From positions 1 through 64,000 of the forward strand of contig NZ_JAHXRW010000014.1 in NCBI RefSeq assembly GCF_019429625.1: a DNA stretch of 64,000 nt, read 5' to 3'. Below, in pieces: positions 23,878 to 47,635 of the stretch. The first letter of the stretch is position 1, and the number at the start of each line of letters is the position of its first letter. The notes under the pieces were generated by a model, which saw only the letters and a list, made by a program, of their open reading frames with translations, searched no databases and was not told the DNA's origin. Source of the DNA: Celeribacter sp. PS-C1. Its GTDB lineage: Bacteria; Pseudomonadota; Alphaproteobacteria; Rhodobacterales; Rhodobacteraceae. Both the position numbers and the translations under genes were made by a program.

Positions 23878-23897
23878 GATTCCGCCCCCGGGCACCA
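23878..23897 (+). other. attachment-site sequence: 3' end of tRNA-Phe (internal junction)
   Basis: gattccgcccccgggcacca is the T-arm/acceptor 3' end of an alphaproteobacterial tRNA-Phe gene including the encoded CCA, but no tRNA body precedes it. Its first 15 bp are identical to 47515-47529. It stands just upstream of integrase 1 and marks the junction between the two elements. Besides this site, 23774-24131 holds integrase arm-type repeats and no gene. Confidence 0.75.
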
Positions 23898-23966
23898 TTT
23901 AAACTCTTCAAGATATTGAATATTTTACAGAACGCACTTTCGAGCGCATTCTGCTGTAACTCTTCC

Positions 23967-27991: not shown

Positions 27992-28392
27992 AAAGGGCTG
28001 TTTTGCGAGTTTTTCGCACGACGGGGGTATAACGAGCGAAACGAAATTCGGTTGCTCGCGAACCGGTTGCTGTCAACGCTGGATGACCTCACAGGCTCCA
28101 TTTGGTTTCTACATTGCGCATTTCGATCCTTCGAAGATGAACTCCTAAGGGCAAGTGGTGACGGATGAGCGAGAGCGAAACGACCGCTCCAAGATCGAAA
28201 GGGTGGAGCAAAAAGGAGCGGCTGGCGATCATTCTTCGATCCATTCTCCGGCACAACCCTCCACCTCTTCCCACAATCTGCAGATGATCTGTTGCATCGA
28301 GGCGCCACTGACCGATACTTTGGCCGCGACATCGTATTTCATACAAATCACCAAAGGCGCATTACGGCGCTCAAAACAGGCATTTGGAAGAC

Positions 28393-30878: not shown

Positions 30879-32065
30879 GCGGAGGAAAGGCTTTGGAGCC
30901 GAAGCTACGATTTCCGGAGTTTGAGGGAAATTGGGAAGCAACAAAATTTGGCGAATTAATCGACATAGCAAATGGACAGGTTGATCCGAAAGTCGAACCC
31001 TATGCGTCCATGCCACACATTGCGCCAGACAACATTGAAAGTCGGACAGGCAAACTGAAAAATGTGCGGTCGGCTTGCGAAGATGGCGTAATCTCCGGAA
31101 AATATGAGTTCGACGAAAAAGCTTTGGTTTATTCAAAAATCCGCCCGAACCTCAGCAAGGTCGCCAAACCTGGCTACCGCGGAATCTGCAGTGCTGACAT
31201 GTATCCGATTTGGGCGAAGGCAGACAGATCAGACACCGGCTTCTTGTTTCATCTTATGCTTGGCGAGAAATTTGTCTCCGATGCCATAGCCGTTTCGATG
31301 AGAACGGGCCTTCCAAAGATTAATCGTCCGGATCTGAACGCAATTCGCACTCACGTTCCGAAAACTATTCCAGAACAACAAAAAATCGCCGCCTTTCTCG
31401 ATGCGGCGTCGAAGAAGATCGCGCTGTTGACAGAGAAGCGGGACGGGCTTGTGGCGTATAAGCGCGGGGTGATGCAGCGGCTGTTCTCCGGCGCGCTGCG
31501 CTTCACCCGCCCCGACGGCTCTGCTTTTCCGGATTGGGAATATTTCAGCTTAGACGATCTTGAAGCCCAAGGAAATGTCGAGCTTGGTCGCGGTCAAGTT
31601 ATCTCAAAGGCGGACCTGCGCGCACATCCAGGAAACTATCCCGTATATTCATCTTCTGGCGTCGATGATGGAGAATTCGGACGCTATGGAAAGTGGATGT
31701 TTGATGAAGAGCTCATCACTTGGTCCATTGACGGTGGCGGTCGTTTTTTCCATCGAAAGTGTGGGAAATTTTCAATAACAAACGTCTCAGGTTTTCTTCG
31801 GATATTAAACTCGGAGCCAAACTATGGATACCTATACTCAGCACTTTCATTTCTTCATCAACGTCTTGTCTTTGATTACCAGCTCAAAGCTCACCCGAGT
31901 GTAATAAGAAAGTTGTATAAGAGGATTCCGATCCCACACCCCGACGAACAAACCAAAATTGCCGAAGCCCTTTCCGCTCTCGACGCCAAAATCGACGCGG
32001 TGAGCGCCGAAAATTCCCAGATGGAGACCTTCAAGAAAGGCCTCCTGCAAAAGATGTTCGTTTAA
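30875..32065 (+). CDS. hsdS: type I restriction specificity subunit
   Basis: A 396-residue HsdS with two target-recognition domains. TRD1 spans about 1-165, then a conserved helix spacer (PEQQKIAAFLDAASKKIALL...KRGVMQRLFSGALRF); TRD2 spans about 210-345 and the second spacer is DEQTKIAEALSALDAKIDAV. These spacers form the coiled coil that docks HsdM. The TRD coding regions are visibly more AT-rich than the flanking genes, consistent with exchange of specificity domains by transfer. It sets the bipartite recognition site, which cannot be read by eye. Confidence 0.94.
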   Translation: MSGGKALEPKLRFPEFEGNWEATKFGELIDIANGQVDPKVEPYASMPHIAPDNIESRTGKLKNVRSACEDGVISGKYEFDEKALVYSKIRPNLSKVAKPGYRGICSADMYPIWAKADRSDTGFLFHLMLGEKFVSDAIAVSMRTGLPKINRPDLNAIRTHVPKTIPEQQKIAAFLDAASKKIALLTEKRDGLVAYKRGVMQRLFSGALRFTRPDGSAFPDWEYFSLDDLEAQGNVELGRGQVISKADLRAHPGNYPVYSSSGVDDGEFGRYGKWMFDEELITWSIDGGGRFFHRKCGKFSITNVSGFLRILNSEPNYGYLYSALSFLHQRLVFDYQLKAHPSVIRKLYKRIPIPHPDEQTKIAEALSALDAKIDAVSAENSQMETFKKGLLQKMFV

Positions 32066-32083
32066 GAGTTCTAAAGGAAGTCC

Positions 32084-34969
32084 ATGTCCATTCAGTCCGA
32101 AGCGCAGCTTGAGAAAGAACTGATCCAGCGGCTCACGGGGCTTGGCTGGGTCGAGGTGTCGGTGCCGGATGTCGCGACGCTCCACTCCAATCTCAAGGCG
32201 CAGTTGGAGGCGCATAACGGGCTGACCTTCTCCGATGAAGAGTTCAAGCGCATCCTGAACCGTCTCGAAAAAGGCTCTGTGTTCGACAAGGCCAAGGCAC
32301 TGCGCGACCGCATGGTGCTTCACCGTGATGACGGGACGGTCACGCATATCGAGTTTTTCAACAAAGAGGAGTGGTGCAAGAACCGCTATCAGGTCACGAG
32401 CCAGGTGACGGTCGAAGGGAGCTACAAGACCCGCTACGACGTGACGCTGCTCGTGAACGGGTTGCCACTTATTCAGATTGAGTTGAAGCGCCGAGGCCTC
32501 GGCCTCAAGGAAGCATTCAACCAGATCAACCGCTATCAGCGGCACAGCTTCTGGGCGGGATCGGCGCTGTTTCAATACGTCCAGATTTTCGTGATCTCGA
32601 ACGGCGAGAACACGAAATACTACGCGAACAACCGCAATCAGAGTTTCAAGCAGACGTTCTACTGGGCAAAAGAGAACAACGACACGATCCAGCCGCTCGA
32701 GAAATTCGCGGACGCGTTTCTGGAGAAGTGTTTCGTCTCCAAGATGATCGCGAAATACATCGTGCTGCATGAGGGCGACAAGATCCCGATGATCTTGCGC
32801 CCGTATCAGTATTACGCGGTGGAGGCGATTGTGGACCGCGTGCAGAAGGGTCGAAAGAACGGCTATATCTGGCACACGACCGGATCGGGGAAGACGCTGA
32901 CCTCGTTCAAGGCGAGCCAGATCATTGTCGAGAACCCGAAGGTGGCAAAGGTGGTCTTTGTCGTGGACCGCGCCGATCTCGATTACCAGACCACGAAAGA
33001 GTTCAACGCCTTCTCCGAAGGGTCGGTGGACGGCACGGACAACACGAACAATCTTGTGAAGCAGCTCGCCGAACCGAAGGTGAAGTTGGTCGTGACGACG
33101 ATCCAGAAGCTGAACACCGCGATCACCCGCGAACGTCACGACGCGGCGATGGCGTTGATCAAGGACGAGCGCGTGGTGTTCGTGTTCGACGAATGCCACC
33201 GCAGCCAGTTTGGCGAGACGCACAAGAATATCGTGAACGCGTTCTCAAAGGCGCAGATGTTAGGGTTCACCGGCACGCCGATCCTGGCAGAGAACGCGGT
33301 GGGTAAGAAGACGACGACCGATCTGTTCGGCGAGTGCCTGCATAAATACGTCATCACGGATGCAATCCGCGATGAGAACGTGCTCCGGTTCTCCGTCGAG
33401 TATTGGGGTCGTCTGAAGAAAAAAGACGGGTCGCTTTTGACCGACGAGGAAGTCGGCGGGATCGATCTCAAGGAGTTCTTCGAGAGTGATCAACGTGTCG
33501 AAGGCGTCGTCGATTGGGTGATCGAGAACCACAAGTCGAAGACGCATGATCGGGACTTTTCGGCGATCATGTGCTGCAGCTCTGTCGATGCGTTGACGAA
33601 GACGTATGAGGCGTTCGCGAAACGCAAGGCCGAGGGTGCGCACGATCTCAGAGTGGCGACGATTTTCACGTTTCAGGCCAATGAGGAGGATCAGGACGCG
33701 GATGGCCTGATCGGTGAGCCGGATGTGACGGGCGGACCTGTGAATGCGCAAACGATGCATAGCAGAGACAAGCTGGGAGGCTTCGTAGACGACTACAACA
33801 CGATGTTTGGCACCAACCAGTCGGTGAAAGACGGAAAGGCCTTCTACGCCTACTACAAGGCCGTGGCGAAGCGGATGAAATGGCGTGACAAGAAGGACTT
33901 CGTGCCGGAGAAAGGCATCGATATCCTGCTCGTCGTTAACATGTTCCTGACGGGGTTCGACGCGAAGACCTGCAACACGCTCTACGTCGACAAGAACCTC
34001 AAATACCACGGGCTGATCCAGGCATTCTCACGGACCAATCGCATCCTCGGACAGAAGAAGTCGCAGGGGAATATTGTCTGCTTCCGGAACCTGAAGACGA
34101 AGGTCGACGAGGCGATCGCGCTGTTCTCGAACAAGGACGCGAATGATAAGATCCTGATCGAGCCCTATCAAGTCTATGTGGACCACTTCAACGAGGCCGT
34201 GAGAGCGCTTCTGGACGTCGCGGAGACGCCCGGAGCAGTAGACCGACTGGAAAGCGAAGAATACACTCTGGCGTTCGTCCAGGCGTTCAGAGAGCTCATG
34301 CGCATCCGCAATGTGCTGACGACGTTCGCCGAGTTCAGCGATGATGATCTCTCGATGGAGGAGCAGAGGTTCGAGAAATACAAGAGCAAGTATCTCGACA
34401 TCTATGACCAGCTAAAATCAGACCGCGACGGTCAACCGAAAGCCTCGATCATAGACGAGGTGGATTTCGAACTCGAACTGATCCGGCGCGACAAGATCAA
34501 CGTGGCTTATATCCTCGCCCTACTCGCCTCCATTGGCGACGAAGAGGACGATGAGGCCGGGCGAGCCACAGCGGATGCGAAGAAGAAAGCGGTGCTCGAT
34601 CTTCTCGGATCGGAGGCGCGCCTTCGCAGCAAGCGGGAGCTGATCGAAGAGTTCATTGCTTCGTATCTGACGACGCGCCGCGGAGGTGATGAGACGCGAG
34701 ACGCGTTCAACGAATTCTGGGACGAGAAACGCGAGCAGGCCTTCAAAGACCTTTGCGCAGAAGAAGGTCTCGATCCTGACGGGTTTGCGAAACTGATGCA
34801 ATCTTACCAGTTCACCCAGAAAGAACCGCTTGCCGACGACGTTCTGCCTGTCCTGAAGAAGCCTGTCGGCATTCTACAGCGGAAGTCCGTGATCTCTCGA
34901 ATTGTGGAACGGCTGAAGGGTTTCATCGAGACATTCGATGAGAATATGGGGGATGTGGAGGGGTTATAA
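32084..34969 (+). CDS. hsdR: type I restriction endonuclease/translocase subunit
   Basis: A 961-residue HsdR. The N-terminal nuclease domain has YDVTLLVNGLPLIQIELKRR (D...ExK). The SF2 translocase has IWHTTGSGKTLTSF, VFVFDECHRSQFG and MLGFTGTPI, and the later motifs include GFDAKTCNTLYVDK and QAFSRTNRI. The C-terminal helical region binds the methylase core. It pumps DNA past the bound complex and cuts unmodified DNA at a distance. It lies 18 bp after hsdS with AAGGAAG upstream. The region 34970-35276 that follows has no supportable gene and should hold the promoter of the next operon. Confidence 0.96.
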   Translation: MSIQSEAQLEKELIQRLTGLGWVEVSVPDVATLHSNLKAQLEAHNGLTFSDEEFKRILNRLEKGSVFDKAKALRDRMVLHRDDGTVTHIEFFNKEEWCKNRYQVTSQVTVEGSYKTRYDVTLLVNGLPLIQIELKRRGLGLKEAFNQINRYQRHSFWAGSALFQYVQIFVISNGENTKYYANNRNQSFKQTFYWAKENNDTIQPLEKFADAFLEKCFVSKMIAKYIVLHEGDKIPMILRPYQYYAVEAIVDRVQKGRKNGYIWHTTGSGKTLTSFKASQIIVENPKVAKVVFVVDRADLDYQTTKEFNAFSEGSVDGTDNTNNLVKQLAEPKVKLVVTTIQKLNTAITRERHDAAMALIKDERVVFVFDECHRSQFGETHKNIVNAFSKAQMLGFTGTPILAENAVGKKTTTDLFGECLHKYVITDAIRDENVLRFSVEYWGRLKKKDGSLLTDEEVGGIDLKEFFESDQRVEGVVDWVIENHKSKTHDRDFSAIMCCSSVDALTKTYEAFAKRKAEGAHDLRVATIFTFQANEEDQDADGLIGEPDVTGGPVNAQTMHSRDKLGGFVDDYNTMFGTNQSVKDGKAFYAYYKAVAKRMKWRDKKDFVPEKGIDILLVVNMFLTGFDAKTCNTLYVDKNLKYHGLIQAFSRTNRILGQKKSQGNIVCFRNLKTKVDEAIALFSNKDANDKILIEPYQVYVDHFNEAVRALLDVAETPGAVDRLESEEYTLAFVQAFRELMRIRNVLTTFAEFSDDDLSMEEQRFEKYKSKYLDIYDQLKSDRDGQPKASIIDEVDFELELIRRDKINVAYILALLASIGDEEDDEAGRATADAKKKAVLDLLGSEARLRSKRELIEEFIASYLTTRRGGDETRDAFNEFWDEKREQAFKDLCAEEGLDPDGFAKLMQSYQFTQKEPLADDVLPVLKKPVGILQRKSVISRIVERLKGFIETFDENMGDVEGL

Positions 34970-35276: not shown

Positions 35277-38200
35277 ATGTCCGCACTAGTAAGAACATTG
35301 GAAGCATTTCCCCGTGGTCGCACAACGGAAGAGCTTCTTGTCTTGATGGGGGCAGCATTCAGCCACTCGAAACGCATGCAATGCTTGGCGGAATTAGATG
35401 AGCTCGTGCGCTCGGGGCGAGCAGTGCGTGGCCATGATGGGAAGTGGCGATCCACGAAAACATACTTCTCGAATGAGAAGAACTCTTCCAGTCGCAACAG
35501 AGCGAGCACGGATAGCGCAGATGAAAACTTGCTTCACGCCGCACGAGCGGAATTCTTCCTTTCGAAGATAAGTGAGGATGAACAACCCGAGCGTGGAGAT
35601 CACAGCATCAAGCCCAGTGCCCTTTTGCGGTATTGGCAGTCAGCGCTTCGATCTGATCCGCGCGGCGCTACGACAGCTATCGCAGACCAACATGGCGTGG
35701 ACTGGCATCTTGTCTCGGGCAAAGGGCCCGTTGTGCCGATGGAGGACGGCGTTGTCCGGCTGTTGATCGATCTGGATCAATTGAACGGCGAGTTCCGCCA
35801 GGCGCTTTTGCGTCGAGAGGCAAATGAGAATGCACTTGCGCTCGGTTGGCCGCTTGCTGTGGGGCGGCGTGGCGGCGTGCCTGTCGTCTGGCCTGTCGGT
35901 CTGCTGTCCGCATCGTGGCGCAGAACCGAAACCCATCTTGAAATCCATATCGAAGCCGATGACGTGCTCGTTAACTCTGACTGGATCCACGGAGCAGCCC
36001 GCGCCACCTCTTGGTCCAGAACCGAGCTCGGGGAACTCTTTTCAGACGGCGACACGGTCGGACATCGCGCCGAAGATTTCTTGTTGAAACTCCGCGAAGC
36101 GGTCAGCACTCAGATCCGTGGTAAAGTGACTGGCGAAGCGCTAGTCACACAAGTAGATATGAACGCTCACGGCGTATACGATGTGGCCGCGCTTTTCCTG
36201 CCGGGAGAGTCGAGCTTTACCGCGGGAGCGAGCAAGGATCTAGATAGGCTTGCAACCTGGCCGGAGGAGAGGCTTGCGCGGTCAGCACTCGCGCCTGTGC
36301 TTGGCCTGAAACCGGATCTAGAGCTCAACACTACTGCAGCGATAAACCTCGGGCCGCTAAACGGTGAGCAGCTTCAGGCCGTTCGTAATGCCGTCGAGGC
36401 ACCTTTATCAGTTGTAACGGGGCCACCCGGCACGGGCAAAAGCCAGGCAATTGTCTCCATGGCTGCCTCAGTAATACTGAACGGTGGCAGCGTAATGGTC
36501 GCATCCAAGAACCATCAGGCACTCGACGCGGTGGAGGAACGTCTCGGAAGCATGGCGCCTGACGTGCCTTTTGTGGTGAGAACCCTTGACCCAGCGCGGG
36601 AAATAGACAGATCTTTCGCGGATATCCTTGGCGAATTGATTGTCGCTGAATCTGCTGTATCACAGCTACTCCCAGATGGGCTGATCCGTGACAAAATTCG
36701 TGCTCTGGCCGCTGAACGCGCAGGGGCGCTTGATGCGTCGTTAGAAAAAGCACGCCTAGAGTGCGAGATAGCAGATATCCTTGATAGGATCGAAGCTAGA
36801 GAACAACACAGAGCCGCGAACTCGGAAGAGGCTTCTGTTACAAAAAGGGCAAAGCAATCGAACTTCTGGGAGCGCGTTCTGGAAATGGTCACCGCGCTCT
36901 TCGGCAAACGCAGTGATGCGTCTCCTAGCGAGGAAGTGTCGCCCACGACGCTATCCGAAATGTCGCTTTCTGAGCTGAAAGTCTATCTTGAACAACTCAG
37001 AGCGAAGAGCCGCGCGCTTGTTCTCGAGACAGACACCATCGCGCTGGCAGCAGAAATCCAAGCACTCGTCGTAAAATATCTACCTGAAGAGATGAAGCGC
37101 CGTGTCAAGTTAAGTGAAGATCGTCGTCTTGCTCTGACTGATGCAAAGGACGAAAGCGATTTTCAGGGGAAAGGGCCACTTCCTTCCGAAATCGCGCACA
37201 AGATACTTGAGCATCGTCCGCTTTGGCTCGTGTCGGTGCTCGGCGCCCCCAAGAGAATTCCACTCGACGATGGTATGTTCGATCTGGTGATCTTCGACGA
37301 GGCCAGCCAATGCGACATCGCCTCAGCAATGCCGCTGTTCGCACGAGCCAAGCGGGCTGTCGTAGTGGGCGATGACCGCCAATTGTCGTTCATCCCACAA
37401 TTGGGACGCGCACAGGATCGCAATCTGATGCAAGCGCAGGGTCTACCGTCCAAAGGTATGGCAAGGTTTTCTCAGAGCCGCCGGTCCCTCTTCGATTTCG
37501 CCCTCCGTGTGCCTGATGTGCCGCGTGTCACACTGCGCCATCAATATCGGTCCGCAGGCCAGATTGTGGATTACATCAGCGGTGAATTCTACGGCGGGGA
37601 GCTAATCGTCGCCCAACCACCCGTCGGCGTCAAAGTGCCAAATAATGCGAAACCCGGAATCGCCTGGACCCATGTGCCCGCTCCCGCCATTCCGTCGAAA
37701 GGCAACATCAACAAGGCTGAGGCGCAAGCCATCGCGCGCGAAGTCAAAACGCTGCTGGTGGATCAAGGATATGATGGTTCCATAGGAGTAATCACGCCAT
37801 TCCGTGCGCAGATCGAGGCAATCAGCGCTGCTGTCGAGGGCAACATCCCGCAGCGCCTCTTGGAAAAAGCCGAGTTCCGGATAGGAACGGTGGATGGCTT
37901 TCAGGGACAAGAACGGGACCTGATCCTCTTTTCGCCTGTGCTAGGAGCCAGCAGCGCAGTGACGAGCCTATCTTTTGTCCAGAAAGACCCACGCCGCTTG
38001 AATGTGGCGATCTCCCGTGCTCGAGCTGTTGCCCACGTTTTCGGGGATCTCGACTTTGCCCGTAGCGGTAAGGTGCGTGCATTGGCCCGCCTCGCTGCAA
38101 CCGCCACCGAGCCCCGAAAGCGCAGCGGCGAAGGTCGCTTTGACAGCGAATGGGAGAGCCGCGTGTTTTATGCGCTGAAAGACCGTGGCATGGAGCCTTT

Positions 38201-38447
38201 CCCTCAACACGAGATTGCCGGTCGCTACCTTGATTTTGCGCTTTTCGGTAAGAACGGGGTCAAACTCGATCTCGAGGTGGACGGACGCCGCTGGCATCAG
38301 ACCGCTGACGGGCGACGGAAGACCTCAGATCTCTGGCGCGATGAACAATTAAAATCACTCGGCTGGCGGGTGCGCCGGTTCTGGGTGGACGAACTTTCTC
38401 AAGATATGGATGCCTGCCTTGACCTCGTCGAACAAGACCTTTCCTAA
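35277..38447 (+). CDS. UPF1-like SF1 helicase with N-terminal winged helix and C-terminal Vsr/DUF559-like nuclease
   Basis: A 1056-residue protein. Residues 1-60 look like a winged helix (RTTEELLVLMGAAFSHSKRM...). Walker A is VVTGPPGTGKSQAI (~379-388); a long helical insertion with coiled-coil character runs ~460-620. Motif II is VIFDEASQCDIASAMP (~670), motif III VVGDDRQL, and motif VI RRLNVAISRARAVAHVFG (~910). The last ~110 residues form a nuclease module: FDSEWESRVFYALKDRG, RYLDFALFGKNGVKLDLEVD with the D...ExD pattern, and WRVRRFWVDEL, as in Vsr/DUF559-type PD-(D/E)xK folds. It starts the five-gene operon, and its end overlaps the next gene by 38 nt. Predicted nucleic-acid-unwinding effector, possibly RNA-directed like UPF1 (inference). 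Confidence 0.88.
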   Translation: MSALVRTLEAFPRGRTTEELLVLMGAAFSHSKRMQCLAELDELVRSGRAVRGHDGKWRSTKTYFSNEKNSSSRNRASTDSADENLLHAARAEFFLSKISEDEQPERGDHSIKPSALLRYWQSALRSDPRGATTAIADQHGVDWHLVSGKGPVVPMEDGVVRLLIDLDQLNGEFRQALLRREANENALALGWPLAVGRRGGVPVVWPVGLLSASWRRTETHLEIHIEADDVLVNSDWIHGAARATSWSRTELGELFSDGDTVGHRAEDFLLKLREAVSTQIRGKVTGEALVTQVDMNAHGVYDVAALFLPGESSFTAGASKDLDRLATWPEERLARSALAPVLGLKPDLELNTTAAINLGPLNGEQLQAVRNAVEAPLSVVTGPPGTGKSQAIVSMAASVILNGGSVMVASKNHQALDAVEERLGSMAPDVPFVVRTLDPAREIDRSFADILGELIVAESAVSQLLPDGLIRDKIRALAAERAGALDASLEKARLECEIADILDRIEAREQHRAANSEEASVTKRAKQSNFWERVLEMVTALFGKRSDASPSEEVSPTTLSEMSLSELKVYLEQLRAKSRALVLETDTIALAAEIQALVVKYLPEEMKRRVKLSEDRRLALTDAKDESDFQGKGPLPSEIAHKILEHRPLWLVSVLGAPKRIPLDDGMFDLVIFDEASQCDIASAMPLFARAKRAVVVGDDRQLSFIPQLGRAQDRNLMQAQGLPSKGMARFSQSRRSLFDFALRVPDVPRVTLRHQYRSAGQIVDYISGEFYGGELIVAQPPVGVKVPNNAKPGIAWTHVPAPAIPSKGNINKAEAQAIAREVKTLLVDQGYDGSIGVITPFRAQIEAISAAVEGNIPQRLLEKAEFRIGTVDGFQGQERDLILFSPVLGASSAVTSLSFVQKDPRRLNVAISRARAVAHVFGDLDFARSGKVRALARLAATATEPRKRSGEGRFDSEWESRVFYALKDRGMEPFPQHEIAGRYLDFALFGKNGVKLDLEVDGRRWHQTADGRRKTSDLWRDEQLKSLGWRVRRFWVDELSQDMDACLDLVEQDLS

Positions 38448-39924
38448 GTCAAACAAACACTCCCTGATCGCTGGCATCCTTGCCACGACCGCACTCGTCA
38501 GTGTCGGGATTCTGGGCTTCAGTGTGAGCAAGCTTGACCGTGAATTCGGGAACATTATTCGCGATCGTGCGAGCTATGAAAAGCGCCTCTCCGAGATAAC
38601 GACAGAAGTCGACGATCAGGAAACCCGCCGTGAGGCCGCATGGCAAGAACGCCAAAATATCAATTCGGAAATCACGTCGCTGATATCGCAAAAGGCGGAT
38701 ATCCAGCAGGACGTTGACGACTTGGTGTCCGATCGGGACAATCTACTTTCGCGCATCGACGGCATGAAAACGGATTTGGCCGAAGCGAATGAGACATTGA
38801 AAGAGGCCGCTCAGCTGGAAGCTCTCGTTGCGGACCGCCGTGAAGCGCTCGACGAGCTCTTAGGTAGCGTAATCAAAAAGACGCAAGAACTCGATGATCT
38901 GAACAGTAAGCTCAGCGACGCCCGTGTAGCCCTCTCGGATGCCGAGTCTGCCGCTCAAACCGCCGAGCAGAGGCTAGCTACCCTGCGATCTGATATCTCA
39001 AACGAGAGCGACAAGCTTGAAGCCCTACTGACACAAGTGCGTGGCTTGGAGGCAGACCGCACGGAAAAGAATAGGCTCCAGGACGAACTGGTGGCCTTGA
39101 AACTTGATCGTGACAACCTCCTCAACGACACGGAAAACTTGGTAGCGCGTCAAATCGCTGCGGAAGAGAAACTCGGACAGACGCAGAGTGCACTGACCGT
39201 CGCCAGCGCAGAGCTGAAGAGCGCGGAGGACGCCTTATCCGACGTGCGAAGCGAGGCGGAGCGCGTGCGAGCCGAGCGTGAACTTGCAGTGCGTGCGCGG
39301 GCTGATGCCGAAGCTCGCACCGCTGAAATGACGCGCCAGATTACAGATTTGGAAGCCCGGAAATCAGGCCTTGAACGCGAAGTCGCAGATCTCAACAGCC
39401 GTCGCGCGGCGCTTGCCGTGGAGGTCGAGGGCTTCAATGAGACGAAGCAGCGTTTGGATGCCTTACTCCGTCAGGAGGCTGCGCTTTCCGAACGCGTAAC
39501 GACTCTGACACAAGAACAGGAACGGCTCACGCCCGTCCTAACCGACCTAGAACAGCAGAACGCGACGCTCCGCTCTGAGCAGGCCGATGCCGAAGCAGAC
39601 TTGCAGAAGTTGCGAGAGACGCTACAGGCGCTCAACGGGCGGCGTGGCACTCTGACACAATCCATTGAGGACCTCGAGGCGCGTGAAACAGACGCCCGTG
39701 CGACTGCAGAACAAGCACAAAGCGAGTCTGCGGCACGCCAAACTGAACTTGAAGACTTGCGATCAAAACAGGTGACATTGGAGAGAGAGATTTCTGCGCT
39801 GCGCAGCATACTGGAATCGCTCCAGAGCCAAGTTCAAGCCGAGCCCGACGCTTTAGCCTCCGCACAGCAACCTTCGGCCATCCAACCAACCCAAGAGACG
39901 CCCGTCGAAGCTGCGGCAGAGTGA
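38410..39924 (+). CDS. membrane-anchored coiled-coil protein
   Basis: A 504-residue protein with one N-terminal membrane helix (SLIAGILATTALVSVGILGF, residues 18-37) and about 440 residues of nearly unbroken heptad coiled coil rich in Glu, Ala, Arg and Leu, ending in a short Pro/Gln-rich tail. There is no enzymatic motif. It overlaps the helicase gene by 38 nt and precedes the McrB-like gene by 12 bp. It probably forms a long rod from the inner membrane that scaffolds or senses, pairing with the similarly built N-terminus of the next protein. It lacks MotA/MotB-like sequence, so it is not a Zorya motor component. Confidence 0.85.
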   Translation: MPALTSSNKTFPKSNKHSLIAGILATTALVSVGILGFSVSKLDREFGNIIRDRASYEKRLSEITTEVDDQETRREAAWQERQNINSEITSLISQKADIQQDVDDLVSDRDNLLSRIDGMKTDLAEANETLKEAAQLEALVADRREALDELLGSVIKKTQELDDLNSKLSDARVALSDAESAAQTAEQRLATLRSDISNESDKLEALLTQVRGLEADRTEKNRLQDELVALKLDRDNLLNDTENLVARQIAAEEKLGQTQSALTVASAELKSAEDALSDVRSEAERVRAERELAVRARADAEARTAEMTRQITDLEARKSGLEREVADLNSRRAALAVEVEGFNETKQRLDALLRQEAALSERVTTLTQEQERLTPVLTDLEQQNATLRSEQADAEADLQKLRETLQALNGRRGTLTQSIEDLEARETDARATAEQAQSESAARQTELEDLRSKQVTLEREISALRSILESLQSQVQAEPDALASAQQPSAIQPTQETPVEAAAE

Positions 39925-39936
39925 GGATCATAGACC

Positions 39937-41964
39937 ATGTTGACCAATCTAACTTTGATCGTGCTGATCGTTGCCGCCGCTCTTGCTCTGTTTACCATCG
40001 TTCTCTTCGTGCTCGCACTCAATCACGACAAAGTGGTGACAGCTCAAGGCCCTCTTGCCACGCTTGAAGCACTCATGCAGCAAATCTCGCAGAAAGAGGA
40101 ACTTAAGGCGGATCTCGAGGGTGAGTTGGAAAAGCGGCGTGAGGCGCTTGCCAATGTCGGCAATATCCAGGCCGAGGTCGATGCACTAGTGCGTCAGAAG
40201 GATGAACTTCTCTCGGAATGGGCAACACTCGAGGAGCGTCGTTCCGAGGTGCAAGCGGTGCGCTCAGAGATGGAGGAAGCGATGATCGAGCGTCAGAACC
40301 TCGACGCAGAGCTTGCACAAAGGCGCGAAGAGTATCTGGCAGTTAAGGAGCGGCTGGACAAGGCAGAAGGACTGGTCTCACGCATCGAAGCTCTCAAGTC
40401 CGAACATGAGGAACTGGCACATCGCACCGAAGAGATGCGGAATGAGGTGAGACGCCTCGAAGATGCCGAGAAACGCGTTGCAGATCTCGACGCGAAAACT
40501 GCAGGGCTCGAAGCAGAATCTGCACGACTGGACGGTCGTATCGCAGCCAAAGAGGCCGAGCTAGAAGAAAGCAAAGCCCGCATTGTAACTGAGCGCGAGG
40601 CCTTGGTCGCGGGCCAAGTAGAACTGTCACGCGTTCAGTCCACTCTCGCCGCATCTGAACTTGAAGCTGCAAGTATGCAAGGAGAAATCAACAGCCTTTC
40701 GGAAAAACGTGAGACAATGCAAGCACGCCTAACCTATCTCGAAGGAGAGATTCAAAGGGCCGAAGGTGCCGTGTCGGGCACGGGCGGTGCTGAGGCAGTT
40801 GATCCGCTCAAAGAACTCAAAGAAGCACCGAAAGTCATCACAGAACTCCGTAAGCTACCCGAACGCCCTTCTCAATTGCCAGAGGCTGAGGCCATTCTAA
40901 ACGTTCAGCGACAGCTCAAAGCTAGCGGGCTCGAATATCCGCGCCGCATCATTCGCGCTTTCCATACGGCGATGAAAGTGAATGAAAGCACACAAATGGC
41001 CGTGCTGGCCGGGATTTCCGGCACGGGAAAGAGCCAATTGCCGCGGCAATATGCCAAAGCGATGGGGATCGGCTTTCTACAGGTTCCCGTTCAGCCGCGT
41101 TGGGACAGCCCGCAGGACCTCATGGGCTTCTACAACTACATCGAGGGCAAATTTCGTCCGACGGATATGGCACGAGCTCTCTGGGCGCTTGATCCGCTCA
41201 ACAATGACGAGGCGCTTGAGGATCGCATGATGATGGTCCTTCTCGATGAAATGAACCTCGCTCGAGTCGAGTATTATTTCTCCGATTTCCTTAGTCGCCT
41301 CGAAAGCCGCCCTAGCCCATCCAACGTCTCGGACGAAACCCTGCGTAAGGACGCCGAGATTGAGCTGGAGATCCCTAAACTCCTCAACCCTCCCCGTATT
41401 TTCCCAGGCTATAACCTGTTGTTCGCCGGAACAATGAATGAAGACGAGAGCACCCAATCGCTATCTGACAAGGTAGTGGACCGCGCTAATATCCTGCGCT
41501 TCTCCGCCCCTCAAAAGATCAAGAGCGGTAAGGCGGAAGGCACTGCGCCCGAACCTGCGGCGCTGTCGCAGACCGATTGGCAGCGTTGGCTTCGCCCTGT
41601 GTCCCAAGTCGAAAGCGATCGCACACTGCAATCAGGGCTGGAGACCATGGTCGATATTATGAAAGAGTTCAAACGTCCCTTCGGTCACCGTCTCGGCCGT
41701 GCCATCATGGCCTACGCTGCAAATTATCCAGAACTGGAAGGCTCCAACGGCATTCGTGACGCATTGGCTGATCAGGTTGAGATGCGCCTTTTGCCGAAAC
41801 TTCGCGGTGTCGAGGTCGATAACACCGACCCGCAGTTCTCGAAGCTGCGGAGTTTTGTAGAACAAGAGCTCGGCGATCATGCGCTGGCCGAAGCAATCGC
41901 TCATGCTCGCATGGAAGCGGAGGACTCGACTGGCCAGTTCGTCTGGACCGGGGTCACACGCTGA
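39937..41964 (+). CDS. membrane-anchored coiled-coil McrB-like AAA+ NTPase
   Basis: A 675-residue protein: N-terminal membrane helix (LIVLIVAAALALFTIVLFVL, ~7-26), about 250 residues of coiled coil, then an McrB/MoxR-type AAA+ domain. Walker A is LAGISGTGKSQLPRQ (~359-366), followed by QPRWDSPQDLMGFYN. Walker B is MVLLDEMNLARVEYY (~437), and LFAGTMNEDESTQSLSDKVV (~497) corresponds to the McrB GTPase signature MNxxD region, with an acidic variant. In McrBC this subunit binds DNA and uses GTP to drive the McrC nuclease. Here the N-terminal DNA-binding domain is replaced by the membrane coiled coil. The next gene overlaps by 1 nt. Confidence 0.88.
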   Translation: MLTNLTLIVLIVAAALALFTIVLFVLALNHDKVVTAQGPLATLEALMQQISQKEELKADLEGELEKRREALANVGNIQAEVDALVRQKDELLSEWATLEERRSEVQAVRSEMEEAMIERQNLDAELAQRREEYLAVKERLDKAEGLVSRIEALKSEHEELAHRTEEMRNEVRRLEDAEKRVADLDAKTAGLEAESARLDGRIAAKEAELEESKARIVTEREALVAGQVELSRVQSTLAASELEAASMQGEINSLSEKRETMQARLTYLEGEIQRAEGAVSGTGGAEAVDPLKELKEAPKVITELRKLPERPSQLPEAEAILNVQRQLKASGLEYPRRIIRAFHTAMKVNESTQMAVLAGISGTGKSQLPRQYAKAMGIGFLQVPVQPRWDSPQDLMGFYNYIEGKFRPTDMARALWALDPLNNDEALEDRMMMVLLDEMNLARVEYYFSDFLSRLESRPSPSNVSDETLRKDAEIELEIPKLLNPPRIFPGYNLLFAGTMNEDESTQSLSDKVVDRANILRFSAPQKIKSGKAEGTAPEPAALSQTDWQRWLRPVSQVESDRTLQSGLETMVDIMKEFKRPFGHRLGRAIMAYAANYPELEGSNGIRDALADQVEMRLLPKLRGVEVDNTDPQFSKLRSFVEQELGDHALAEAIAHARMEAEDSTGQFVWTGVTR

Positions 41965-43469
41965 TGTCGAAACTCGGGCGACCATGGTCCGGCTCTTACA
42001 TTCCTGACACGCAAGGTTTTTCACGCAAAGACTGCCTGTTGAGTGAATACGCGCCCGCGCCTCTAGACCGCGAAGAACGGGTCCTCCTGATGAAGGGCGA
42101 ATTCCTTCGTCAGGACCGCTCTCTCTACCTACATCCCTACCCGAAACGCGCTGATGCAGCTGCTCCTATTCGAATGGGGTTTCCTGTGCGGCCAAAGCTC
42201 GGAAACGAACCTCGCGATGATGAGGAGCGCTTCGCTCATGCCTCGCTGACGCGGATGAACGAGGTGCTCGCACGTATTCAGGAGCTTGAGGAAGCGCTTG
42301 ATGACCCTGAAAACGTCTGGTCGCGGTTACGCGAGGCGTGGCGGAGAGCTGAAAACGAGGAAGACCCTCGTATGGCCGAAATCGTCAAACAGGCGCGTGA
42401 TCTCACACCTGTGTTGAAGAGCCTTGAAGCGCGCATCCGTCGAGTGCTGCGCCGCAATCGAGAACTTACCCCGATTGACCGGGTGCAGGAAATGGATCGA
42501 GCCTCTATGGTTTGGCTCTCCCGTCAGCCTGGACGGACCGTTGTGGAGCGGGCTGGAGCATCGCAGCGTATTCTTTCCACAGTCCGTCGTGAGAACTTTG
42601 ACACTCTTGAGAACCGCGTCCTTCACGCATACACAAAGCTCGCAGAGGCTGTGGCACGGGAATGGCTCCGCGAGCACCCCAGAGCCCGTGAGAGTGCCCG
42701 CTACAAATCCGTCCATACCTATCGCAAACTCCTACGAGCTTTCTCTCGGATGCTCGCTGAAATTGATGTCGGTATTGCTGCTCCTCCCGTCACACCCAAC
42801 TATGTTTTGATGCAGGACAGAGGCTACAGGCAAACTTTCAAGGCTTGGGAACGACTTCTGAGGCGCGAAAAGACCCTCGATGAGCTTTGGGCCTGGCAAG
42901 CTCAGGCTTGGACCGATTTTGCAGTCCTAGCCATCGTTCTCGCGCTTGACGAGCTTGATGAGTCTGAACTCATCGCACAGTCCCCTGTCGTCTGGAACGA
43001 AGAGGCTGTAACCGGACGTTGGTTTCATCAAGACAGACCACTCGCCGTCTTTTGGCTCAAACAGACGGGCAGAATTGTGGAGGTCCAATCGCGTCCAGAA
43101 ACTCCGGGCTCACTTTTAACCGCAGCTCGCGCCCATGTGGCTCTACGTATTACCGACCCACAGCGAGAAGATGTCTCTCGCCGCGTAGCCGTCTGGACAC
43201 CTCATGCAATGGAGGAGATCAATCTAACCGAAGCTGTCGACGAATGCTTCGGTCTAGTAAACCAGATTCAGCAGGTGCGAATTGGCGAGGTGCTTCGCCA
43301 CGGAGTGATCATCGCACCCGCCCATGCGCGAGCCGGAAGCGAAAGTAGAAACAGCGGAGGAATGCGTGTCGACGGGATTGCCCTCGGCGCCTCGGGCGAA
43401 AGTCTGGCCCGAGGAATGGAAGCAATACGGTCATTTGCCCGCAGCGAGATCTATCGGGAGGCGCAATGA
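41964..43469 (+). CDS. McrC/DUF2357-like partner protein
   Basis: A 501-residue protein starting at the last base of the McrB-like gene. The central region RRENFDTLENRVLHAYTKLA resembles the DUF2357 segment found before the nuclease in McrC-type proteins (ENRVLK-like). A long helical section lies at ~90-180. Near residues 362-376, PLAVFWLKQTGRIVEVQSRP could be the nuclease core strand, but the motif reads E373-V-Q375 rather than ExK and no clear preceding Asp is seen. The nuclease may therefore be altered or inactive, with cleavage supplied by the helicase-nuclease. The McrC assignment rests mostly on operon position and this motif. Confidence 0.6.
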   Translation: MSKLGRPWSGSYIPDTQGFSRKDCLLSEYAPAPLDREERVLLMKGEFLRQDRSLYLHPYPKRADAAAPIRMGFPVRPKLGNEPRDDEERFAHASLTRMNEVLARIQELEEALDDPENVWSRLREAWRRAENEEDPRMAEIVKQARDLTPVLKSLEARIRRVLRRNRELTPIDRVQEMDRASMVWLSRQPGRTVVERAGASQRILSTVRRENFDTLENRVLHAYTKLAEAVAREWLREHPRARESARYKSVHTYRKLLRAFSRMLAEIDVGIAAPPVTPNYVLMQDRGYRQTFKAWERLLRREKTLDELWAWQAQAWTDFAVLAIVLALDELDESELIAQSPVVWNEEAVTGRWFHQDRPLAVFWLKQTGRIVEVQSRPETPGSLLTAARAHVALRITDPQREDVSRRVAVWTPHAMEEINLTEAVDECFGLVNQIQQVRIGEVLRHGVIIAPAHARAGSESRNSGGMRVDGIALGASGESLARGMEAIRSFARSEIYREAQ

Positions 43470-45841
43470 GAAGAATCCGTCTTTGCGGCTATGACGTTAA
43501 CGGCGTGCGCGACATGTCCGCGCGCAACTGGATGATCCTTCCAGGAGATGAGGAGGTCTTCGACTCCAGCTTTCTGAGTCACGGGGATCGATTTGGTGGC
43601 GTCGTGCGCGTTGGCGCTGAAGCAGGGGTGAATTGGATTGGCGGTCGTCAGGCCGCGCTTGCCCCTCATGGAAGAGGTAACGGATGGGGGAAGGTCGGGG
43701 CGGAAGGGCTTCGCGTTCCTATTCTTGATCTCTTACATGGGCGAACAGACGATGCCATCGCCCTCGGAAGTGCCTTCACTGGGCTTGTAAGTGGCGCACG
43801 CTTTAACGCTGTAGCGATTGACGAGATCGCCGAGGATGTAGAGATATATCAAGAGCGCCTGCTCGCCGCTCTGAGCGCCGAACGAATCTCCAATCCGATG
43901 CTAGTCTGGCGCTCGGTTCTCGCAGTCCTACACCATATGCGAAACACCCAGGTCCGAGAAAGGTCTGTTATTGGCGTAGTGTCTCACGGGTTCGATGGGC
44001 TCCGACTGCAAAAGCTACGGATTCTCAAACAGGCCGGAAACGCGAAAGAGGTGCTTGCACCCGAACGACGCCGCACAGCTATTCATGTGCCGTTCACTCT
44101 GAGCTACAGGCAGCTCGTGTCTAGCGCGCGGGAGCGCCTTCTTGGTGGCGAGGCACTGTCAGCCCGCAACGCGCATATGGCCCAGGCGCGATCTGCTGCA
44201 AATCTTGCGCTTGGCGAGACCTGCGAAGCGGAGGTTCTTAGAAAGAGCAACGGTGATTGGGATGTTCTTCGAGCGCAGGCACCGCTGGACTTGGAAATAC
44301 CGAAATTACCGCACAAGGAATTCGACTGGCTATCTGACTGTGACGAAATTCTGTTCGAAAGCCTCACGACGGGAGATGTGCGTCGGACTGTTCTCTCGGC
44401 TTGCGAACACGCGATAGGCCGAAAAATCACGGCATTACCACAGGAAGCTGTCGCGCTTGGCGCGTTAGAGGCGGCCAAACGCGTCTCAGAGGGCGACCCG
44501 GTCTTTTTCGACTTCTTGCCCAAAATTTCAACCATCGTATATGCTGACGGCGAGGCGGCCAGTTACGATCTTATTGAAGACAGCGAGACACTTGTGGCAG
44601 GTCAGCTCTACCGCAGTCCCAAGCCCGCACGTCTCGGCCTGCCTGGAGGACAGTCCGAAATTTCCATCTACCTTCGCAAAGAGGCGCAAACTTGGCCGCG
44701 TAAGGCGACCGTCAGCATTGGCGCTTCCTTGAAGGACGACACGCCCGTTTCTCTCTATGTCGAACAGAAGCCTGCGGCTGGACGTGCACGTATCGTGATG
44801 CACGCTGACACTATCAGCCACCAGTTCGTCGTCGACTGGGATCTAGCAGAGGAAATTAAGATGGACTGGGATGCGCTTATCGCCTCCCTGGAGGTTCAAA
44901 AACCGTCCATCCCGAACAAACTGGTGCTCCCATGCTCTTCACTTGCATGGGATGAAAGTAATCGAGGACCATCTCTCTATGAGCTTCTGGAGCAGAACGT
45001 TGATCGGCATAGAGTGGACTGGGCATCTTTGGCTGTAAAGCTGGCCTCTCGGCCGAACCAAACCTATTGCATTTCGAGTGAGGGCGCGCTCCCAACCGAA
45101 GTGAGCGACGAGGCAGAAATGCAGCTCAATCGGCTCACCGAACGGGCGATCGCCGAAACACGCGAACGGCTTTCAGGCCGCAGGGACGACGACAATGAAG
45201 CTCTCAAGTTCCTGACTTGGCAATTCAAGCGAGCTCCTGATGAAGTTGCAGACTATCTGCTGGAGTGTATTTCCGCCCGAGATCTGAGGATGTTCAAGCA
45301 CCCGTTTGTAATGAATCATATGAGCTGGGTTCTGGTGTATTACGGCGCGGGGCGGATCATTAGTGACCCGGATCGCGAGCGCAAACTCATGGATGCAATC
45401 TATTCTCGGCCATGGCAGGAATGGAACTGGAGGGTTGAGGTTGCGGCTCTTGCAGTGCTTCTGTCTCGTTCCGACAGCGCGCCCCTATTTCTGACCCCTG
45501 AGCGGGTAGAGATTGCTTTTCTGCGCCTTAGACACGAACTGAAAGAGGCAATCGGCTCCGCTTACACAAAGTTCTCCTACACCCCTTTCCTGCTCGTTGG
45601 TCTGCTAAGATACAGAATGAAAGAGCCTTGGGCACTGGTGCTCGGACGAGATCAGAAAGCCGCAGTCCTGGCAGAAGATGTGAAAGCCGTTCTAAAGGAT
45701 CTGGAACGCCGCGCACGACGCAACGAGAAGATCAAGCGAACCTACGAGAAACGCGCTTCTCAACTTTCCCAAGTTCTCGAAGAGCTTGAAGGAAGCGGCA
45801 CCAACCCTGATTTGCTGCTGGATCTTTTCCATTCAACATAA
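43466..45841 (+). CDS. Hsp70-like protein of the coiled-coil operon
   Basis: A 791-residue protein overlapping the previous gene by 4 nt. The opening RIRLCGYDVNGVRDM sits where Hsp70s have GIDLGTT. ERSVIGVVSHGFDGLRLQKL matches the VIGVPS..NxxQR strand, and ITALPQEAVALGALEAAKRV (~325-345) closely matches the Hsp70 nPDEAVAxGAA helix, followed by DPVFFDFLPKISTIVY like the start of the substrate domain. The rest (~450-791) is helical and unrecognised, with a basic coiled-coil C-terminus. It is probably a divergent Hsp70-type ATPase or pseudo-ATPase that senses a translation or phage component. It ends the operon, 102 bp before integrase 2. Confidence 0.65.
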   Translation: MRRIRLCGYDVNGVRDMSARNWMILPGDEEVFDSSFLSHGDRFGGVVRVGAEAGVNWIGGRQAALAPHGRGNGWGKVGAEGLRVPILDLLHGRTDDAIALGSAFTGLVSGARFNAVAIDEIAEDVEIYQERLLAALSAERISNPMLVWRSVLAVLHHMRNTQVRERSVIGVVSHGFDGLRLQKLRILKQAGNAKEVLAPERRRTAIHVPFTLSYRQLVSSARERLLGGEALSARNAHMAQARSAANLALGETCEAEVLRKSNGDWDVLRAQAPLDLEIPKLPHKEFDWLSDCDEILFESLTTGDVRRTVLSACEHAIGRKITALPQEAVALGALEAAKRVSEGDPVFFDFLPKISTIVYADGEAASYDLIEDSETLVAGQLYRSPKPARLGLPGGQSEISIYLRKEAQTWPRKATVSIGASLKDDTPVSLYVEQKPAAGRARIVMHADTISHQFVVDWDLAEEIKMDWDALIASLEVQKPSIPNKLVLPCSSLAWDESNRGPSLYELLEQNVDRHRVDWASLAVKLASRPNQTYCISSEGALPTEVSDEAEMQLNRLTERAIAETRERLSGRRDDDNEALKFLTWQFKRAPDEVADYLLECISARDLRMFKHPFVMNHMSWVLVYYGAGRIISDPDRERKLMDAIYSRPWQEWNWRVEVAALAVLLSRSDSAPLFLTPERVEIAFLRLRHELKEAIGSAYTKFSYTPFLLVGLLRYRMKEPWALVLGRDQKAAVLAEDVKAVLKDLERRARRNEKIKRTYEKRASQLSQVLEELEGSGTNPDLLLDLFHST

Positions 45842-45943: not shown

Positions 45944-47317
45944 TCAAGGAACATCTGAAGCGGTCTCAGCGCCTGCTTCGATCAGCTCGAAAGCGTCGGC
46001 CAGACGTGAAAGCGCTTCTTCTTGAGGATCTCTCGAATTTGTCATGATCTTCGTGACATGAAGATAGTGAGAAGCCGCGCCGCCGAGGTTCTCAGCCTGC
46101 AGAGGTTCTTTGTGAGCAAGAATGCGTTCGACCTCTGACAGCGGGACGTGGAGTTCTTTCATCAAAGTTGCTGCAGTCCGTCTCAGGTCATGCCTATTCC
46201 AGTCGCTCGTTCCAGTCTCTTCGTAAATCGCTGTCTGAATACGCGTCCAGTTCCCGAGTTTACCGCCCACACTGTTTGGAAAGACCAGCTCTTCGGGTTT
46301 CCCCTGATCCCAACCTGGCAGCGAACGCAAGATATCAATGGCTGCGCCCGACAGTGGAAGATCTTGGCCTCGCGCACCTCCTTTCGTCGATTTCACGCTG
46401 GGCTTTCGCCAAACACAGTTTTTCCGATCTAGATCACGCCAACGCATGGCAACGACCTCCTCGCGACGCGCAGCAGTGTAGAGCATGAAGCGCAAAGCGA
46501 TCGGGCGAAAATCTTGGGCAGCGTCGATCTTCATTCCTCCGATTTGTGGCGCGGGATATTTCAGCAGAGGTAGAATTTTTTCCAACTCGACTTGGGTCAG
46601 AACGCGCTTCCGCATTCCGGTGATCGACGGATCAGTCGTGGCGGGGTCATGCACGGCATCAAGGCTCGCAACCTCCAGCTTGGGAACTCGACCAGCCCCA
46701 AGCTTTGCATATGACTTCCGTCCAGCCGCCCAATCGAGCAAAGGCGCAAGATAAGCACGGGCTTTCGACGCTTGTCCATTTGCGGATTTCTTCTCTTCGG
46801 TCAGGCGAACCGGCTTGTAATTGTTCACACACTTCGCGAACGCTTCCACTTTGATTGTCAAAACAGGCTTATCAAGCAGCGGTTCGAAGACGCGTTCCAC
46901 AACTCGTCCCGCTTGTGTCCGCTCAGTCTTCGGCCCAGCTGGAGCCCAAACCTTCTTTTCACCAAAGGCGGCTTCATATTCGCGAAGCAACTCTCGAAGT
47001 GTCGGCGCATCCTTCGCACCTTGCACTGCAGCGCGCTTACGTCGCTTCTCTGCAGTAACGTCCACGCCCGCCTTCAACTCAAGACGCCTCCGCGCCGCCT
47101 CATCTCGCGCCTGCTTGAGAGACATCTCTGGATATTGACCGAGGGTAACGGTTTTCAGTTCGTTGCTGGCGTCTCGTGCTTGGAGAGCGAAAGAGATTTT
47201 GCCCTTTGCTGAAATTCTCGCGCGGAGGCCGGTCATCGCGGCATCGCTGATTGTCTGGGACTTTCCAGTGGGTTTCAGTTTTCGAAGGTAGGCATCGGTA
47301 AGGGCAGTCTTGGTCAT
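45944..47317 (-). CDS. int: tyrosine recombinase of the P4/DUF4102 type (integrase 2)
   Basis: A 457-residue integrase with the DUF4102 N-terminal domain (LTDAYLRKLKPTGKSQTISD; LGQYPEMSLKQARDEAARRR) typical of P4-like integrases that use tRNA genes. Catalytic residues: Arg in YTAARREEVVAM, HxxR in NRHDLRRTAATLM, His in ERILAHKEP and Tyr in SHYLHV. It starts 165-200 bp from the tRNA-Phe remnant at 47484-47529, with the arm-like repeat 47328-47350 just upstream. Integrates and excises element 2. Confidence 0.94.
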   Translation of the reverse strand: MTKTALTDAYLRKLKPTGKSQTISDAAMTGLRARISAKGKISFALQARDASNELKTVTLGQYPEMSLKQARDEAARRRLELKAGVDVTAEKRRKRAAVQGAKDAPTLRELLREYEAAFGEKKVWAPAGPKTERTQAGRVVERVFEPLLDKPVLTIKVEAFAKCVNNYKPVRLTEEKKSANGQASKARAYLAPLLDWAAGRKSYAKLGAGRVPKLEVASLDAVHDPATTDPSITGMRKRVLTQVELEKILPLLKYPAPQIGGMKIDAAQDFRPIALRFMLYTAARREEVVAMRWRDLDRKNCVWRKPSVKSTKGGARGQDLPLSGAAIDILRSLPGWDQGKPEELVFPNSVGGKLGNWTRIQTAIYEETGTSDWNRHDLRRTAATLMKELHVPLSEVERILAHKEPLQAENLGGAASHYLHVTKIMTNSRDPQEEALSRLADAFELIEAGAETASDVP

Positions 47318-47483: not shown

Positions 47484-47529
47484 CAGAGATTGAAAATCCT
47501 CGTGTCGGTGTTTCGATTCCGCCCCCGGG
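47484..47529 (+). other. attachment site: degenerate 3' half of tRNA-Phe
   Basis: The sequence reads cagagattgaaaatcc, then tcgtgtcggtgtttcgattc, then cgcccccggg. This is the anticodon arm (loop TTGAAAA, anticodon GAA), variable loop and T arm of tRNA-Phe, with one G missing in the anticodon stem and a changed acceptor end. The 5' half is absent, so no functional tRNA is encoded. It is the right boundary between element 2 and the chromosome. Confidence 0.8.
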
Positions 47530-47604: not shown

Positions 47605-47635
47605 AAAAGCGCCCCCGCAATGCGAGGGCGTTTTC
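47605..47635 (-). terminator. rho-independent terminator of katG
   Basis: GC-rich hairpin gcccccgc/gcgagggc around the loop aat, one C-A mismatch, flanked by A-run and T-run so that on the minus strand the stem is followed by TTTTTTT. It lies 20 bp past the katG stop and may also stop readthrough from the other side. Confidence 0.75.

Follow-up and report, generated by a model that had tools for sequence, protein, structure and literature searches.

The stretch of Celeribacter sp. PS-C1 DNA analysed here (contig NZ_JAHXRW010000014.1, positions 1 to 64,000; hereafter the window) contains a compact set of five genes, cnuH, cnuA, cnuB, cnuC and cnuD, which we regard as a probable Type III-B CoCoNuT, a subtype within a large class of McrBC-related systems. 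A first-pass annotation had read the region as an operon of five genes at positions 35277 to 45841, and the window's list of open reading frames (ORFs) bears out their number, place and orientation: all five lie on the plus strand and overlap or nearly touch (Table 1). As the ORFs stand, the junctions are −38, +12, −1 and −4 nt in gene order, as annotated. The first of these probably needs revision. The ORF reading of cnuA begins at ATG 38410 (38410–39924, 504 aa), but a TTG codon lies 29 nt ahead of the end of cnuH in all 20 loci that could be compared, the window (position 38419) included, and GGAGG is found within 18 nt upstream of this TTG in 17 of them, the exceptions being the window, L008 and L026. 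Because of this conservation, TTG 38419 is most likely the start of cnuA rather than ATG 38410, in which case the cnuH/cnuA overlap would be 29 nt and CnuA 501 aa in length.

Table 1. Coordinates of the five-gene operon and of neighbouring features in the window
Feature	Position	Strand	Description
cnuH	35277..38447	+	1056 aa; UPF1/SMUBP2/Sen1-like superfamily 1 (SF1) helicase, C-terminal Vsr/DUF559-like PD-(D/E)xK nuclease region
cnuA	38419..39924	+	501 aa (probable start); coiled coil, one predicted N-terminal transmembrane helix; alternative start ATG 38410
cnuB	39937..41964	+	675 aa; predicted N-terminal transmembrane helix, coiled coil, McrB-like AAA+
cnuC	41964..43469	+	501 aa; DUF2357 (McrC N-terminal domain) and C-terminal region
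cnuD	43466..45841	+	791 aa; Hsp70-like fold and all-helical C-terminal region
Tyrosine integrase	45944..47317	−	Pfam Arm-DNA-bind_3 and Phage_integrase; presumably belongs to the carrier element
Left tRNA-Phe fragment	23878..23900	+	20 nt of tRNA 3′ end (23878–23897) and 3 nt downstream; 100% identical to intact copy
Right tRNA-Phe fragment	47488..47529	+	42 nt, 41 identical to intact copy
Type I restriction-modification (RM) operon	28384..34969	+	Upstream neighbour, not part of the CoCoNuT
hsdM	28384..29943	+	Type I RM operon
PDC-S02/NucS-C-like gene	29940..30878	+	312 aa, between hsdM and hsdS
hsdS	30875..32065	+	Type I RM operon
hsdR	32084..34969	+	Type I RM operon

CnuB combines a predicted transmembrane helix (aa 5–28), a coiled coil (approximately aa 40–280) and an AAA+ domain with the Walker A motif GISGTGKS at aa 359. 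This motif and an NxD motif (NED in GTMNEDEST) were present in all 22 full-length CnuB proteins, and NxD is described as strictly conserved in the branch to which the CoCoNuTs belong (Bell et al. 2024, PMC11090510). The Pfam AAA_5 model falls just short of its cut-off (20 versus 22 bits), but the motif and the closest relatives, which are CoCoNuT-type CnuB proteins, agree with the annotated McrB-type AAA+. CnuB also matched PADLOC PDC-M26A (E=1.6e-42); the same model matches the CnuB of Types III-A, III-C and II, and therefore marks a wider group rather than III-B. A MoxR-type or other non-McrB AAA+ was ruled out by the NxD motif, the DUF2357 partner and the identity of the nearest relatives. 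The coiled-coil region showed heptad periodicity (z 2.7 over aa 40–280), SMC/Rad50-type coiled-coil models matched below their cut-offs, and the best 60 of 103 matches of the CnuB profile in the PDB consisted solely of coiled coils and a small number of P-loop proteins. In CnuA, heptad periodicity was far stronger (z 11.3).

The annotation of CnuC as DUF2357/McrC-like was upheld by Pfam (PF09823, E=8.4e-7), and a CnuC profile matched the CnuC of Type III-C (E 3.4e-27), Type III-A and Type II, the Type III-C comparison reaching 99.1% with hhalign. In the PDB, no McrC was retrieved with the same profile, the best match (E 0.047) being unrelated. The family alignment of the C-terminal part has P-L/P-I and E-V-Q/E-I-Q/E-V-H where the PD and (D/E)xK motifs would be expected. 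By our own motif reading, this fits the inactivated PD-(D/E)xK fold published for III-B CnuC, which is accompanied by an N-terminal Ig-like beta-sandwich (PMC11090510). At the limits used, CnuD was matched by nothing in Pfam, PADLOC or NCBIfam, and its profile found no Hsp70 among PDB sequences (best E 0.37). The annotated Hsp70 likeness nevertheless emerged from the structure model, in which fold comparison recognized an Hsp70 fold, with nucleotide-binding and beta substrate-binding parts, over aa 3–461, followed by an all-helical region at aa 468–790. Published III-B CnuD proteins carry HEAT-like helical repeats and usually coiled coils (PMC11090510).

CnuH matched the Pfam SF1 helicase families AAA_11 and AAA_12, and its C-terminus (approximately aa 955–1056) matched MTES_1575 (E=3.4e-12) and DUF559 (E=6.1e-7), both above the Pfam cut-off, in agreement with the helicase and C-terminal nuclease that had been annotated; in the PDB there was a weak match to an endonuclease-like protein (E=0.019). 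The helicase core models as UPF1-like, and the best fold matches are mostly RNA helicases (SETX, UPF1 and IGHMBP2), Dna2 also being among the UPF1-like matches. At the N-terminus, aa 3–59 form a helix-helix-helix-strand-strand arrangement resembling a winged helix-turn-helix (wHTH), modelled with a predicted local distance difference test score (pLDDT) of 75–86. Seven strands follow at aa 143–226, alignment to UPF1/IGHMBP2 beginning at aa 110, and the Walker A lysine K388 is followed by helices at aa 447–644; these parts of the model are of low confidence. In the published anatomy, CnuH of Types II and III has a helical insertion after Walker A, and that of III-B has in addition an N-terminal, Sul7s-like wHTH, an OB-fold and a fused Vsr-like nuclease (PMC11090510).

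Relatives of the operon were sought through CnuC, which matched 24 plasmid records, three of them rhizobial and covering at least 80% of the protein at 59–60% identity. An alignment of the window CnuC with these three relatives led to 20 more loci in a species-genome collection, a lower bound because the scan begins from two short peptide patterns. To judge by their titles, all of these come from alphaproteobacteria (Rhodobacteraceae-type genera, Rhizobiaceae and metagenome-assembled genomes (MAGs)), and across plasmid records and species genomes full-length relatives were found in that class only. The resulting set comprised 24 loci (the window, L002–L004 and L008–L027). The order H-A-B-C-D was found in all 20 loci that span the five positions, the window included, so that chance juxtaposition of the five genes can be ruled out; where a contig end cuts the locus (L011, L012, L015 and L021), the order agrees as far as genes are present. 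An ORF with the same N-terminus as CnuA stands between cnuH and cnuB in 20 of 20 loci. The set is partly non-independent, as the sequences of L017, L018, L019 and L023 match exactly across 9476 bases, with a single difference in L004. In these same five loci cnuH starts at the position of the window's residue 320, with the first third lost. We observed that these shortened copies are near-identical representatives of the R. tropici group in which the other four genes are open, and that in L004 an IS21 element lies directly upstream of the shortened cnuH.

The system is rare. It was present in one of 61 genomes of relatives, in one of 385 genomes of the class, whether searched by CnuC or by CnuD, and, as III-B CnuB, in two of 398 genomes of the phylum; each sample includes the window's own genome, and the second phylum case is the genome of L024 (14,577 of 14,577 bases identical). 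Of 44 stretches of viral contigs with a pattern match, none encodes a relative.

The first-pass annotation had suggested a CoCoNuT-type or sister system, and had proposed a neighbourhood census and a comparison with published subtypes. The locus fits a CoCoNuT, and one whose subtype can be named as III-B. The gene-by-gene match to the published anatomy extends, as far as tested, to the same five components, domains and fusions in the same host group, III-B having been published as alphaproteobacterial (PMC11090510). None of the defining features of III-B that we tested failed, but the inactivated nuclease and beta-sandwich folds of CnuC, the wHTH and OB-fold of CnuH and the HEAT-like repeats and coiled coils of CnuD are at most candidate features here. 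The NxD McrB motif, DUF2357, the Hsp70 fold and the recurring five-gene order are all present, in place of the ordinary MoxR ATPase, lack of McrC or Hsp70 similarity and unconserved gene order that the annotation had allowed for. In a CnuB tree the window falls inside a single III-B clade with support of 95/99, Type III-C adjoins this clade with weak support (81/47) and Type III-A lies outside. The tree contains seven references, four of them on long branches, so that only the III-B clade, which was named from gene content, is firm. The reference loci were likewise typed here from gene content (L005 as III-C, L028–L030 as III-A and L032 as II).

Among plasmids, the nearest CnuB outside the clade is that of the III-C-type locus of Synechocystis pSYSX (L005; 43.8% identity), followed by III-A-type proteins (34–38%). 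The III-C locus has a homologous CnuC and a CnuB that also begins with a hydrophobic helix, but a PLD-family gene where III-B has the Vsr-like fusion. No CnuA was recognized among its annotated genes, and at an E limit of 0.1 the III-B CnuH and CnuD profiles matched neither of its two hypothetical genes (467 and 800 aa). Types III-A and II share with the window an NxD McrB-like CnuB with coiled coil, a UPF1-like CnuH and DUF2357, but have TerY-P genes, a gene at the place of CnuE (a HEPN RNase in published systems; PMC11090510) and a CnuB that lacks a transmembrane helix; in Type III-A, CnuC and CnuD are also fused. TerY-P genes were found neither among the window ORFs searched nor in the annotated regions of L002 and L004. 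Canonical McrBC likewise pairs an McrB-like AAA+ with a DUF2357 partner, and the window copy adjoins a type I RM operon, but canonical McrB has NxxD where the window has NxD, no active McrC nuclease motif was seen in the window, and the helicase-nuclease, Hsp70-like and coiled-coil subunits are additional. Druantia I/II, treated as Type IV CoCoNuT in a 2025 preprint on YprA helicases, has a related CnuB with coiled coil, but that CnuB is inactive and the helicase is an SF2 YprA protein rather than a UPF1-like SF1 enzyme (PMC12458937). One locus of the family, in a Loktanella MAG (L011, 3211–7068), carries cnuC and cnuD as a single ORF, the only fusion among the loci read. This could parallel the CnuCD of Type III-A or could be an assembly indel; it is in line with a partnership between CnuC and CnuD.

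The class is already known, and what is new here is a predicted membrane tether found family-wide and a mapped carrier element. An N-terminal hydrophobic helix was present in all 22 full-length CnuB proteins (peak hydropathy 2.35–3.23) and in all 20 CnuA proteins with an intact start (1.54–2.35); the CnuA sequences of L012 and L015 have none because their contigs start partway through cnuA. The single III-C CnuB also has such a helix (2.39 at residue 4), whereas the CnuB of three III-A systems and one II system has no transmembrane helix, with values of 0.78–1.16 over the whole protein. Judged by hydropathy, these conserved anchors suggest that the system is placed at the inner membrane, as the first-pass annotation had it. 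The main text of the CoCoNuT paper mentions no membrane anchor for III-B and gives CnuA no recognizable domain beyond its coiled coil. The six occurrences of 'membrane' in it all fall within 'transmembrane' and concern CoCoPALM, EssC and its relatives, a neighbour protein with four transmembrane segments, ShdA or a reference (PMC11090510); the wording of the preprint is alike.

Flanking charges were counted after removal of identical N-termini, leaving 17 CnuB and 16 CnuA proteins with a helix. In CnuB, no lysine or arginine (K/R) precedes the helix and a mean of 1.4 follow it, which argues that the AAA+ domain faces the cytoplasm. In CnuA, the helix is preceded by a mean of 3.4 K/R and 0.1 aspartate or glutamate (D/E) and followed by 2.2 K/R and 3.2 D/E. 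Under the positive-inside rule, these charges suggest that the CnuA coiled coil may be periplasmic, a weaker case than the orientation of CnuB given the small margin; the window CnuA itself has three K/R before the helix and four after.

Computation gave the gene order, the folds of CnuD and of the CnuH helicase core, the motifs, the conserved hydrophobic N-terminal helices and the tRNA-fragment boundaries; the activities of the proteins, their assembly into a complex, its target and the role in defence are inferred, as follows. CnuB would form an AAA+ ring with a cytoplasmic NTPase, tethered to the inner membrane through the N-terminal helix and coiled coil. CnuC would dock on this ring through DUF2357, stimulate hydrolysis as McrC does for McrB and link the ring to CnuD, a candidate binding module whose Hsp70-like fold, with a degenerate nucleotide loop, would probably recognize RNA or ribosome-bound material. 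CnuH would be the effector, with a helicase that loads on single-stranded nucleic acid and a Vsr-like nuclease, fused to it, that cuts, and CnuA, as a second membrane-anchored coiled coil, may scaffold the complex or sense the envelope. That the five genes form a Type III-B CoCoNuT on a tRNA-Phe integrative element and act by this mechanism is the reading we favour, with some reserve. The membrane helices would constrain the mechanism by putting the NTPase ring next to the inner membrane, with CnuA perhaps facing the periplasm, and they offer a cheap first experiment for III-B, the location of CnuA and CnuB. As the operon is compact and present in culturable rhizobia, with copies in Sinorhizobium meliloti GR4 and Rhizobium leguminosarum, deletion and transfer tests are practical.

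We speculate, with much less assurance, that a signal-anchored CnuA, its long coiled coil extending into the periplasm, senses phage attachment or genome entry and signals across the membrane to the CnuB ring, triggering CnuH at the site of entry. Such a system would be an envelope-sensing relative of McrBC. If CnuA senses the envelope, the logic of the system would be closer to Zorya than to classical Type IV restriction.

Three other explanations of the locus deserve weighing. The target may be DNA rather than RNA, with CnuB and CnuC translocating on DNA and the CnuH nuclease cutting invading DNA, in which the type I enzyme encoded next door may already have made nicks. MTES_1575 and DUF559 are families of DNA nucleases, Dna2 is a DNA nuclease-helicase, and type I RM lies next to the CoCoNuT in the window, L012 and L020. 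We nevertheless consider this less likely than action on RNA, though it is the most credible of the three: the best helicase folds are mostly those of RNA helicases, type I RM does not accompany every locus, and the authors of the CoCoNuT paper take the Hsp70-like subunit and the related III-A systems as signs of an RNA target (PMC11090510). It is improbable, in our view, that the hydrophobic N-termini are buried packing segments of a system that is cytoplasmic like other CoCoNuTs. Some members have a CnuA of moderate hydropathy (1.54 in L009), and shuffled sequences reach the threshold of 1.5 in the first 60 residues in 2–4% of cases (194 of 4400 for CnuB, 86 of 4000 for CnuA), but the helix is kept in every CnuB and CnuA that could be scored, always with an uncharged core of 17–25 residues, and beyond residue 60 there is no comparable stretch (maximum 0.94 in CnuB and 1.16 in CnuA). 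Least plausible is a membrane or cell-division complex akin to CoCoPALM and unconnected with defence. CoCoPALM shares with CnuB the order of transmembrane helix, coiled coil and NxD McrB, its McrB being fused to an FtsB-like transmembrane coiled coil, and several loci of our set lie among metabolic genes. Its partners, however, are signal-peptidase-like, and no CnuH or CnuD is described for it in the section that treats it (PMC11090510); for the window operon, Pfam, PADLOC and NCBIfam gave no match to a signal-peptidase or pilus family, and the helicase-nuclease and Hsp70-like subunits are parts of III-B. The patchy distribution, the tRNA island here and the plasmids that carry the system in some other genomes also argue against it, as does the phage protection reported for the related Type II CoCoNuT (PMC12735699).

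Several observations weigh against the Type III-B assignment or the mechanism we favour. The metabolic surroundings just mentioned are one. In hhalign comparisons of CnuC with two McrC-like proteins, the nuclease was not aligned (5.5% and 0.1%). The CnuD profile matched III-A CnuCD marginally (E 0.005–0.7 among 22 sequences) and matched none of the III-C genes, and aa 475–791 of CnuD have no coiled-coil periodicity (heptad z 0.4), which the CoCoNuT paper gives as usual in III-B. Some coiled coil is also predicted there for the CnuH insertion, where we found none (heptad z −0.4), and the CnuH model as a whole is weak, with a pLDDT of 61.5. A periplasmic CnuA coiled coil could not pair with the cytoplasmic one of CnuB. 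Finally, we found no report of III-B activity, or of a test for it, in the open-access literature, and one study of Pseudomonas syringae found that a Type I-C CoCoNuT went with susceptibility to phage rather than with resistance, by correlation (PMC12447246). The annotation had taken the whole class to rest on computational prediction, which no longer holds: in P. aeruginosa PAO1, a cloned Type II CoCoNuT is reported to have been among the systems that gave resistance to at least one phage (PMC12735699). This Type II experiment is the one protection test that we found; an S. aureus genome with Type I-B CoCoNuT is also on record, in a text in which no phage test was found.

The carrier of the operon was delimited by two tRNA-Phe fragments that correspond to an intact tRNA-Phe on another contig of the same genome (C9:404–478). 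They bound a 23.65-kb stretch (23878–47529) that contains the tyrosine integrase, a resolvase, a HipA-like gene, the type I RM operon and the CoCoNuT, and that we propose as a putative integrative element. To its right, similarity to two congeners begins at approximately 47605–47659 (katG, 90–91%). No empty integration site was found in these congeners: left of katG they differ from each other in their DNA, and neither stretch has a tRNA.

A survey of flanking genes covered 68 ORFs of at least 180 aa in 13 of 15 loci (the other two had none), 30 of which were searched. Type I RM adjoined three loci, the window, L012 and L020, and is therefore not a constant partner, although its place beside the CoCoNuT was annotated correctly for the window. 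Shedu adjoins L016 and L002, the latter with a further restriction-modification gene set, and an integrase adjoins L008. We count the presence of type I RM and Shedu beside some loci in favour of a role in defence. Few of the fetched loci were found to have homologues of island genes of the window such as the integrase and type I RM.

Two plasmids carry partial relatives. On a 21-kb plasmid of Jannaschia sp. W003 (L006, 12016–14843), the CnuC C-terminal region alone (170 aa) is accompanied by a full CnuD (772 aa), and the neighbouring genes encode nitric oxide synthase oxygenase and radical SAM proteins. As this stretch gave no CnuH or CnuB match, it is either a putative orphan module of CnuC and CnuD or a remnant; the plasmids yielded no further case of this kind. 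An isolated CnuC fragment on a plasmid of R. leguminosarum RCAM0626 (L007, 9992–10243; 38 aa at 79%) is apparently a decayed copy.

Within the type I RM operon, the protein encoded between hsdM and hsdS matched PADLOC PDC-S02 along almost the entire length (E=2e-147), and also NucS_C. A second mobile-type stretch (approximately 9600–23900), with a tyrosine integrase of its own (22415–23773), abuts the element on the left. It encodes a D5_N primase-like protein (9614), a C5 methylase (12730), and an MvaI/BcnI-like endonuclease (14224). A protein of 1860 aa encoded at 16187–21769 joins in one chain an N-terminal DEAD/RecQ-type helicase (best PADLOC match DpdF, then PsyrT) to a C-terminal UvrD/GajB-like helicase.

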